Assembly: GCF_001752365.1 (NCBI RefSeq)
Contig: NZ_MEIY01000001.1
Location: forward strand, 2,710,918-2,774,917
Length of the DNA: 64,000 bases
Source of the DNA: Marinobacter sp. X15-166B
GTDB taxonomy: Bacteria > Pseudomonadota > Gammaproteobacteria > Pseudomonadales > Oleiphilaceae
Direction: 5' to 3'
Position numbers and translations under genes: made by a program. This document shows, one piece after another, positions 59,488 to 64,000 of this stretch (the first letter of the stretch is position 1; each line of letters begins with the position of its first letter). Under the pieces are notes generated by a model. It worked only from the letters and a program-made list of their open reading frames with translations. It was not told where the DNA came from and ran no database searches.

Positions 59488-61519
<2,032 letters not shown>

Positions 61520-61548
<29 letters not shown>

Positions 61549-62683
61549 CAAAGCCTCGTTTGGGGCCGACAACCACGGCCGCCTGCAGGGGTTGCTGGCG
61601 GCCGTAGCGGGACATGCGGTTGAACACCTTGCGGTCAATGGGCAGATGTTGTTTGTCGGCGATGGTATCGCCCTCTTCAAGGTCAATCTCGGGGTCGTGC
61701 AGATACACGAACTGCTCGTCGAGCGCACAAACGGTGACCCAGTGAGGAACGCGGCTGCGGTTCAGTTGCCAGGTGCTGATCAGGATCACCGGTATCCGCC
61801 CGGCTTTCAGCGCTTGCTCCATATCGTCCAGGGATAAAGGGTTGTGATGCAGGGCAATGTCGGTACTACGGATGTCCTGCAAAAAGCCTTCGTGCACCAG
61901 TTTCAATACCCGTTTCTTGTCTTCGCTGCGCACCGTATCCCGGAACAGCGCCCCTTCCTTGCTGATGTACGCACGGACTTCGAACCCACGGTGCCAGGCC
62001 GACAGGGCCAATCCATGAGGTCCGCAGCCGCCATGTCCGGCGAGCATGAAAATGGTGGTCGCTTCACGCCAGATCTTCAGTTCTTCCAGGGTGGTCAGGG
62101 GTTGGTGTTGGTCCAGCGCGGCCATGGCCATCATCAGCGCCGCCGGGCCACAGGAAAAGTCCGTGGTCTGGGGATAGTAGGGCACGGGCGGGAACGCCTG
62201 TTGGGGCTCGTAAAAAAGAATCCGGCGCTCAAAGCGCAACGCCGTACCGCGGTCCTGGTAATAATCCCGATAGGTGCCGAACTGGCGATACCCCAGGCGG
62301 CGGTACAGGTGGATCGCCGCCGGGTTATCGTCGCGCACCTCCAGGCGCATTATAATCCGGCCGGCATCCACCGCCTGCTGTTCAGCCTCGCGCACCAGAA
62401 GTTCACCGACGCCCATACCGCGGATGTGGGGTGCTACGGCAATGGAATAAATGCGCGCCAGGCGAGTGGCGGCGTTCATTAATACCAGGCAATAGCCGGC
62501 AAGTTCACCCAGATGTTCAGCGACAATCAAGCGATCCCGAGGCATGTCGAGAAAACGCCGAAAACTGCGACGGGAGATACGATCTTCATGGAAACACCGG
62601 GCTTCAAGGGCAATCAGGCCGGGCAGGTCCTGCACATTGGCGAGCCTGGTCGTCGGTGGGCACTGGACGTCGGGGAAGTTCAT
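61520..62683 (-). CDS. GNAT acetyltransferase fused to a C39-like cysteine peptidase
   Basis: A 387-residue two-domain protein. Residues about 10-155 are a GNAT acetyltransferase, with acetyl-CoA motif [17 protein letters not shown] (R88-x-x-G91-x-G93) and [12 protein letters not shown]. Residues about 165-375 form a papain-fold C39-like domain: [18 protein letters not shown] (Cys178), PHWVTVCAL (His314) and LHDPEI (Asp330), a plausible catalytic triad. No signal peptide or membrane segment. It is divergent from a RimK-like ATP-grasp gene, a pairing known but functionally unassigned in bacteria. The set suggests peptide or amino-acid conjugate modification; the true substrate is unknown. The ribosome site is weak. 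Confidence 0.88.
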
Positions 62684-62887
62684 GATGGTGGCTGGCTCAA
62701 CCTCAGCTGCGAATCTTCATTATGGAGGTGATTTTGCCCGCCGCATAGCGGCTATTGATGAGTAAATTTACGCACCAGCGAGTGATTGTGGTGATGGGCA
62801 AGCGAGCGTATTCTGACGATTTTCCGGCCAGGTATTGTCCCCGCCAGCTCGCTCCGGGTTTGCCGTTTCAAGGAAGGGTAACCGTTT

Positions 62888-64000
62888 ATGTCCCGTTTGC
62901 TTCTGATTGTGGATCAGGCCCAGGATTGGGCACCGTATTACCCCAGTGAAGACGTCCTGACATTTGATCAGTACCTCACCTTCTCAACCTCCCCATCCAC
63001 CCGCGTGCGCGTGCTCAATCTGTGCCAGAGTGCCCGCTACCTCAGCCGGGGCTATTATTGTTCGTTACTGGCGGAGGCGCGGGGGCATCACGTGGTGCCG
63101 TCGGTCATGACCCTGAACGACCTGTCGCGTAAGGCATTGTTTACACTGCAGCTTGAAGAGCTGGAAGCGGGCGTGGTGCAGTGGCTGGATCAGGCCGGAG
63201 CGGCATTGAAACCTGGTGCCGACGAGCGGGGCGCGAGTCACGAAGTGCGCATCAAAACCTACTTCGGTCAGGTGCAGGAAGCAGCCTTGAAGCCGGTTGC
63301 CCGGTTGTTGTTCGAACGATTCCCGTGCCCGGTGCTGGAAGTGGTGTTCAGGTATCGCAGAAGCTGGCAGATCGCGTCCATGAAACCCGCGTCCCCGGCG
63401 GAGCTGACGGAGTCGGAGCAGGACAGTTTTGCCGCCGCTCTGGATCGGTTCAGCAGCATCGTGTGGCGCAAACCCCGTACCCGGCGCCGGTATCGATTCG
63501 ATCTGGCGGTACTGGTCAACCCGGATGAAACCATGCCGCCCAGCGACCCGGTGGCACTGCAGCGTTTTGCAAGGGCGGGCCGTAAACTGGGGATCAACGT
63601 TGAGCAGATCACCAGGCGGGATTACATGCGATTGCCGGAATACGACGGGCTGTTTATTCGTGCAACCACGGCCATAGACCATCACACCTTTCGATTCGCC
63701 CGCAAAGCCGAAGCCGAAGGGTTGGTGGTGATTGATGACCCGACCTCTATCCTCAAGTGCACCAACAAAGTGTTTCTGGCCGACCTGTTGAAAAATCACC
63801 GGGTGCCCGCGCCGAAAACCCTGATTCTGTCGAAAGATCACAAAGACACCGTGCAACGGGTTGTATCGGAACTTGGTTTGCCGGCGGTGGTGAAAATTCC
63901 CGATGGTGCCTTTTCCCGCGGCGTGATCAAGGCCACCGATGAGGGGAGTCTGCGTGCCGGGTTGAAAGAACTGTTTCGGCAATCCGCGCTGGTGCTGGCT
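62888..64000 (+). CDS. RimK-like ATP-grasp ligase with extra N-terminal domain, 3' end missing
   Basis: 371 codons are present without a stop; the gene runs past the window. GGAAGGG is 7 bases before the ATG. Residues about 1-200 form an alpha/beta domain (MSRLLLIVDQAQDWAPYYP, LCQSARYLSRGYYCSLLAEARGH in pieces, HEVRIKTYFGQVQE) that resembles the domain often fused before RimK ATP-grasp ligases (RLAN). A pre-ATP-grasp region (DLAVLVNPDE, LFIRATTAIDHHTFRFARKA) comes next. The ATP-grasp core follows from about 288, with DDPTSILKCTNKVFLADLL and LPAVVKIPDGAFSRGV (ATP-binding Lys and loop). The catalytic C-terminus is outside. Relatives of RimK join glutamate to a carboxylate; the acceptor here is unknown. 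Confidence 0.85.
   Translation, partial: MSRLLLIVDQAQDWAPYYPSEDVLTFDQYLTFSTSPSTRVRVLNLCQSARYLSRGYYCSLLAEARGHHVVPSVMTLNDLSRKALFTLQLEELEAGVVQWLDQAGAALKPGADERGASHEVRIKTYFGQVQEAALKPVARLLFERFPCPVLEVVFRYRRSWQIASMKPASPAELTESEQDSFAAALDRFSSIVWRKPRTRRRYRFDLAVLVNPDETMPPSDPVALQRFARAGRKLGINVEQITRRDYMRLPEYDGLFIRATTAIDHHTFRFARKAEAEGLVVIDDPTSILKCTNKVFLADLLKNHRVPAPKTLILSKDHKDTVQRVVSELGLPAVVKIPDGAFSRGVIKATDEGSLRAGLKELFRQSALVLA

Follow-up and report, generated by a model that had tools for sequence, protein, structure and literature searches.

An ATP-grasp ligase and an acetyltransferase–peptidase fusion protein, encoded divergently at the end of the window (the whole stretch of 64,000 nucleotides of Marinobacter sp. 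X15-166B that was analysed), constitute a real enzyme module which is near-core in Marinobacter. It is built from known families, and the evidence gathered here is new as to which of its parts belong together. The alpha-amino acetyltransferase is the usual companion of the ligase and the peptidase is an often-present extra, with exceptions in the family designated f7 and in Pseudomonas aeruginosa. The reading preferred here, which is given a probability of roughly 0.5, is of a cytoplasmic module that would make and break an N-acetylated peptide-like product. The features are as follows.

61520..62683, minus strand: GNAT–DUF3335 fusion protein P0001, 387 residues from an ATG start (open reading frame list and Pfam).
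62204..62659, minus strand: GNAT domain of P0001, residues about 9-160 (Pfam, alignment and predicted fold).
61568..62185, minus strand: DUF3335 domain of P0001, predicted to be papain-like, residues 167-372 (Pfam and alignments; class as given in passages of PMC10318531).
62684..62887, no strand: divergent intergenic region of 204 bp (open reading frame coordinates).
62758..62775, plus strand: degenerate inverted repeat ATGCGT-N6-ACGCAT, a candidate operator, perfect in several other Marinobacter genomes.
62888..64000, plus strand: RLAN–RimK-like ATP-grasp ligase P0002, first 371 of 499 residues, running on to about 64387 in the genome.
62966..63436, plus strand: RLAN domain (PF14401) of P0002, residues 27-183 (Pfam).
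63497..64000, plus strand: onset of the RimK/LysX/ArgX-like part of P0002, residues 204 on, comprising pre-ATP-grasp and ATP-grasp (Pfam; range as modelled for the Marinobacter profundi homologue).

The open reading frame coordinates agree with the initial annotation in that the ligase gene begins on the plus strand 204 bases from the start of P0001 on the minus strand (62888 and 62683, respectively). At its stop end P0001 overlaps by 29 bp the 3' end of a gene on the opposite strand (59488–61548), which we take from its sequence to be uvrB. With the addition of sequence from beyond the window, out of a genome of 3.49 Mb, P0002 reaches 499 residues and ends at about window coordinate 64387, where a convergent gene on the opposite strand overlaps it by 4 bp and is followed by another gene. 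These two genes presumably encode a CDF-type cation efflux protein and a pyrD-like protein. This extension revealed no further gene of the module and, although a precursor had been suggested to lie past 64000, no evident precursor gene. The nearest named relatives of P0002 are from Marinobacter, with 74-82% ligase identity in six records.

Pfam searches of P0001 returned PF00583 at 3e-19 and PF11814 (DUF3335) at 6e-84, and with 281 bits against a cut-off of 25 the protein is a member of the latter family. The combination of a GNAT domain with a Cys178/His314/Asp330 triad in one protein, as originally described, is borne out by an alignment of P0001 with 42 of the 52 listed GNAT–DUF3335 proteins, in which Gln172, Cys178, His314 and Asp330 are invariant across all 43 rows. 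A wider alignment of 25 rows again had Gln172, Cys178 and His314 invariant, with position 330 occupied by Asp in 21 rows and by Glu in four (three from f39 and one from f40). Gln172 is likely the oxyanion residue. The label of C39 peptidase proved too loose, the curated match being DUF3335, with Peptidase_C39_2 at 21.4 bits falling below its cut-off of 24, and PF03412, the C39 family of ABC exporters, was absent from the Pfam matches of P0001 at E 0.001. Glu115 and Tyr127 of the GNAT domain do not vary across the 43-row alignment, and we take their 12-residue spacing to equal that of the RimI catalytic pair Glu103/Tyr115. The AlphaFold model of the window's protein is confident (pLDDT 90.6) and the predicted GNAT fold, for which the structural match list covers residues 8-166, is closest to Ard1/RimI (Z 22.4, rmsd 1.7-1.8), enzymes that acetylate the alpha-amino groups of polypeptides. 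Against TIGR01575, the model for the RimI S18 acetyltransferase, P0001 was a near miss, scoring 79.8 and thus below the cut-off of 86.4.

The extra N-terminal domain that had been noticed before the ATP-grasp core of P0002 is RLAN (PF14401 at 5e-47, 159.8 bits, cut-off 25), and it is followed by the RimK-like ATP-grasp (PF08443 at 1e-8, 35.5 bits, cut-off 21), so that P0002 has the RLAN-ligase architecture. An alignment of 35 of the 75 ligases showed K294, K336, D450, E462 and N464 to be invariant in every row, and by analogy to RimK these are assumed to be ATP/Mg ligands. The confident AlphaFold model of the Marinobacter profundi ligase (pLDDT 85.8), for which the structural match list covers residues 202-499, is closest to RimK over residues 204–497 (Z 28.6, rmsd 2.3, 274 aligned), with ArgX/LysX tied with it (Z 27.4-27.9 over 262-269 residues) and D-Ala ligases lower (Z up to 24.7). 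The profile scores of P0002 lie below the cut-offs of both RimK models (TIGR00768, 77.8 against 143.4; PRK10446, 31.6 against 331), and the LysX model gave 74.5 bits against a cut-off of 275.6.

The initial annotation spoke of a gene pair that recurs in bacteria, and when loss of pairing in relatives was tested the pairing held. Among 398 genomes of the phylum RLAN was found in 72 and DUF3335 in 58, with 57 carrying both, 15 RLAN only, one DUF3335 only and 325 neither. Fisher's test on this table is extreme but ignores ancestry, and as shared ancestry inflates the co-occurrence figure two more tests were made, using a family in which the genes are unlinked (f7) and the genus. No GNAT or peptidase adjoined the ligase in 10 of the 11 f7 loci examined (that of G193 and 10 from the remaining 22 genomes with RLAN); the identical 23 of 26 f7 genomes carry RLAN and DUF3335 and the identical three, all less than 90% complete, are without both. 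The two genes lie about 313 kb apart in the single-contig f7 genome G527. Among 120 Marinobacter genomes RLAN and DUF3335 were each found in 112 (a count that includes genes split over frames in G429, G430 and G449), with both in 111, neither in seven and one remnant each in the other two. Three of the seven genomes with neither (G423, G494 and G511) are 99-100% complete and the other four are 58-91% complete. It is supported that the pair acts as a functional unit: the families co-occur unlinked and are missing or decayed jointly, and the families and folds assigned suit an amide-bond ligase together with an acetyltransferase and a papain-like hydrolase. Chance neighbourhood was rejected on the distribution over the 398 genomes and the unlinked co-occurrence in f7.

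Decay of the genes was seen in two Marinobacter genomes. Both the ligase and the GNAT–DUF3335 gene are broken by several deletions in G475 (L237), and in G435 (L238) internal stretches of the GNAT–DUF3335 gene are missing and the ligase is cut off after 33 residues by the contig end. A single genome, G008, carries DUF3335 but neither GNAT nor RLAN. The module is also carried by Pseudomonas, methanotrophs and other proteobacteria.

The 75 ligase loci of the 72 RLAN genomes included 73 with a GNAT of the family of P0001, and of the two without one nearby L066 has its GNAT–DUF3335 on another contig and L102 lies where the contig ends. All 15 RLAN genomes lacking DUF3335 have a solo GNAT at the locus, generally of about 150–250 residues (one open reading frame reads 323, its start being unsure) and in L106 situated 1.4 kb away. 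Three f73 genomes have the GNAT fused to the N-terminus of the ligase, the two parts occupying residues 8–164 and 180–657 in L123, and these genomes hold a separate GNAT–DUF3335 as well. The best 80 named loci among the matches, a set biased toward close relatives, comprised 53 with GNAT–DUF3335, 23 with a solo GNAT and four with none. Two of these four (L159 and L168) begin with less than 300 bp to the end of the contig, in L160 a fragment of DUF2817 takes the position of the GNAT and the contig then stops, and L165 has no GNAT in the 6 kb upstream, its downstream view being about 200 bp. No GNAT of this family was found within 6 kb of the Pseudomonas aeruginosa ligase (L251). That ligase, at 5911-7500 of L251, stands on a 179-kb plasmid record, and the genes around it (ggt, a glutamate transporter and pagP) are presumably chromosomal ones.

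A tree of the ligases from 73 rows, leaving out the two of the 75 that lack a nearby GNAT, had at least eight switches between presence and absence of the peptidase and at least three between same and opposite strand. In the GNAT tree most GNATs linked to a peptidase fell away from the fused ones and from several solo ones, a separation that is modestly supported and has some exceptions; this tree and that of the ligases are quick ones that carry a warning of long branches meeting. The presence of the GNAT in 73 of 75 loci and the repeated changes of peptidase state on the tree make the GNAT the usual companion of the ligase, and the peptidase as defining partner was ruled out by those changes. 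The proposal that ligase, acetyltransferase and peptidase form one system therefore stands as regards a functional unit and the fit of families and folds, and needs amending in that the peptidase is optional and the GNAT is the usual neighbour. Two f51 genomes contain extra GNAT–DUF3335 genes away from the RLAN ligase (two copies in L139, and L140), the GNAT parts of which are very divergent. The fusion may be put to a different use in these copies.

Two further families recur beside the ligase. DUF2817 was found within 2 kb of it in 15 of the 80 named loci and 14 of the 75 phylum loci, and in f7 it adjoins or overlaps GNAT–DUF3335 in the 10 loci listed of 23 matches, though not at the G193 locus (L137). 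The proteins keep HxxE, NRN, a later His and a LEFG-Glu motif, a set which we take to be the M14 carboxypeptidase pattern, and the profile weakly matches REP34 and MpaA (E 0.002 and 0.03); DUF2817 is accordingly predicted from sequence to be a zinc carboxypeptidase. DUF155, to which the mitochondrial protein RMND1 belongs, occurs within 2.5 kb of the ligase in 13 of the 75 phylum loci and two of the 80 named loci. Loci with a DUF155 gene beside the module come from f39, f9 and f40, with two more among the named loci (L084, L086, L088, L090-L093, L096, L101, L102, L105, L131, L134, L138, L151 and L161), and this neighbourhood offers a possible clue to what the RMND1 family does in bacteria. Genome-wide, full-length DUF2817 is present in 25 of 72 RLAN genomes and 25 of 326 others (10 weak partial matches having been dropped from 60 genomes) and DUF155 in 21 of 72 and 17 of 326, so both families also live outside this module. 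The window's genome has neither.

Between the divergent genes of six Marinobacter (L143, L144, L145, L146, L077 and L079) there is a perfect inverted repeat, ATGCGT-AAAAGC-ACGCAT, which is imperfect in the window (62758-62775), in L142 and in L147. An exact copy of the 18-bp palindrome occurs once per genome in those six genomes, which were chosen mostly because the repeat had already been seen there. No regulator gene was noticed beside the repeat. A regulon sharing the operator was considered and is not shown, there being seven other sites with 2-3 mismatches compared with five for a control pattern.

The product proposed here would arise in two steps and be removed in a third. The ligase would use ATP to activate an acceptor carboxylate and join an amino acid to it by an amide, as do RimK, LysX and ArgX; the RimI/Ard1-like GNAT would acetylate that product at its free alpha-amino end; and the putatively papain-like DUF3335 domain would hydrolyse it, for recycling or turnover. 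In other lineages DUF2817 may trim it from the C-terminus. The data establish the domain assignments, the conservation of catalytic residues, the association of GNAT and ligase (gene fusion included), the co-occurrence of unlinked genes and their joint absence; we infer that all three activities share a product, which way the flow runs, and that a small N-acetyl peptide is made and not a tagged protein. This last preference is weak and goes by the company of an enzyme likely to trim C-termini and by the lack of any recurring target gene. Several observations count against this scheme: the 15 of 72 RLAN genomes that are without DUF3335, so that cleavage by this domain is not common to all; the pattern in G008; the ligases of Pseudomonas aeruginosa and L165 without a nearby GNAT; and the restriction of the f7 absences to incomplete genomes.

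Reversible protein modification, in which a protein would receive amino acids from the ligase at its C-terminus or on a side chain, the GNAT would acetylate either that protein or the tag, and the peptidase would take the tag off, is somewhat unlikely. It would also fit the closest folds, RimK, which has also been solved with RpsF, acting on that protein and RimI/Ard1 on protein N-termini. RimK modifies ribosomal protein S6 (RpsF) and RimB removes the tag from it. The recurrence of DUF155 (RMND1 family) as a neighbour and the want of a precursor gene nearby also point this way, as does the precedent of the RimK/RimB ligase–protease pair described in PMC12239564. On the other side are the lack of any recurring target gene among the neighbour clusters looked at, the presence in the window's genome of a separate true RimK (283 bits, cut-off 143.4), and DUF2817, which would suggest the free C-terminal carboxylates of small peptides. 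The name of conjugation system, with its implication of a protein or peptide target, found no evidence in its favour. An osmolyte of the NAGGN kind, that is, an N-acetylated dipeptide made by ligase and GNAT and degraded by the peptidase after stress, would draw on the same toolkit of GNAT, ATP-grasp and peptidase; the f73 fusion has the GNAT to ATP-grasp order of the TIGR03103 profile and several carriers are marine by name. It appears quite improbable, as on TIGR03103 P0001 scored 36.4 against a cut-off of 569 and P0002 had no match at E 0.001, so that neither is the NAGGN synthetase, and no match over the cut-off was found in the window's genome. Soil, plant and freshwater genera are also among the carriers.

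Two other explanations seem very improbable. The best PDB sequence match of P0001, in the GNAT region, is nourseothricin acetyltransferase (6e-9), which would suit a role in modifying or detoxifying a peptide or amine that resembles an antibiotic, acetylated by the GNAT and inactivated by the peptidase or ligase, but the GNAT fold is nearer Ard1/RimI. Resistance genes are usually patchy in distribution, and the near-core presence in the genus (112 of 120) therefore counts against detoxification. The same is true of the mobility searches, in which the ligase had no matches in phage records and matched 23 plasmid records, 11 of them covering at least 80% of the query; nine of the 11 are from Azospirillum, Tistrella and Pseudomonas at 46-52% identity and the other two are a short one from Legionella (43%) and one from Aeromonas (34%). 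No PADLOC model matched P0001 or P0002, and with these results a defence system or mobile element was set aside. Maturation of a graspetide-like ribosomal peptide with an unseen precursor gene is scarcely to be expected either: an ATP-grasp ligase, a papain-like peptidase and a GNAT can form a toolkit for such peptides, but the 60 largest neighbour clusters (open reading frames of at least 50 residues) contained no small gene found repeatedly next to the ligase in different families, collinear genes often overlap by 1-4 bp and there was no graspetide model among the profile matches of P0001 and P0002. A precursor peptide was seen neither in the sequence past the window nor among open reading frames of that size in those clusters.

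The evidence for joint action of GNAT and ligase replaces the loose labels of RimK family ligase and C39 peptidase by a reaction in two steps that can be tested and that carries its own reversal. If the make-and-break reading were true, a common metabolite or protein tag not yet described would be at hand. It is possible, and put forward only tentatively, that there is a widespread, chromosomally conserved metabolite class or reversible tag, an N-acetylated peptide built by ATP-grasp, produced by an RLAN ligase with a RimI-like GNAT and taken apart by two unrelated peptidases (papain-like DUF3335 and M14-like DUF2817), joined in some lineages by DUF155/RMND1. Such a class or tag could provide a bacterial entry to RMND1 function.

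PF11814 and PF14401 are both catalogued Pfam families and so are not new. The 2009 work of Iyer et al. is said to hold contextual predictions on the DUF3335–GNAT and RLAN–RimK families. The Pseudomonas aeruginosa RLAN ligase is, by gene order, presumably PA1345. Two leads from the literature are weak. In PMC12802237 PA1345 is a CpxR target by motif only and not by DAP-seq, and it is absent from the part of Table 2 available. A passage of PMC12153261 reports that pellicles of Pseudoalteromonas tunicata contain much more of an alpha-L-glutamate ligase of the RimK family. Passages of PMC10318531 class DUF3335 as papain-like and often fused to GNAT domains, and state, citing Iyer et al. 2009, that these GNATs might act in peptide ligation or acetylation. 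The description of an uncharacterised system holds in so far as no functional study or biochemistry of the RLAN or GNAT–DUF3335 families was found among literature titles, abstracts and passages, and fails in so far as the families are known and the fusion is mentioned in those passages.

Among known systems RimK/RimB, the S6 glutamate ligase with a retropepsin-like protease, is similar in that a RimK-type ligase (fold Z 28.6) is opposed by a hydrolase, whereas the window's pair has the extra RLAN domain, scores below the RimK cut-offs, uses a predicted papain-like rather than an aspartic peptidase and adds a GNAT. LysX and ArgX, the amino-group carrier ligases, are as close in fold and differ in that the LysX score is under its cut-off. 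C39 peptidases of ABC exporters are fused to the exporter, whereas the peptidase part of P0001 is fused to a GNAT. The NAGGN osmolyte system, in which TIGR03103 is a GNAT–ATP-grasp synthetase, also has a peptidase, but no amidotransferase recurs among the ligase neighbours looked at here, unlike in NAGGN; the module resembles NAGGN in logic and is not a member. RloABC of Pseudomonas aeruginosa likewise has an ATP-grasp protein and a peptidase in one operon, but its peptidases are secreted aspartic proteases accompanied by a membrane transglutaminase-like protein, and a GNAT is unmentioned in the text of PMC12239564. The families as catalogued under PF11814 and PF14401 are the same two, with the same architecture as the window's pair, and what is added to them here are GNATs standing alone or fused to the ligase, DUF2817 and DUF155 as partners, the unlinked co-occurrence and the joint decay.
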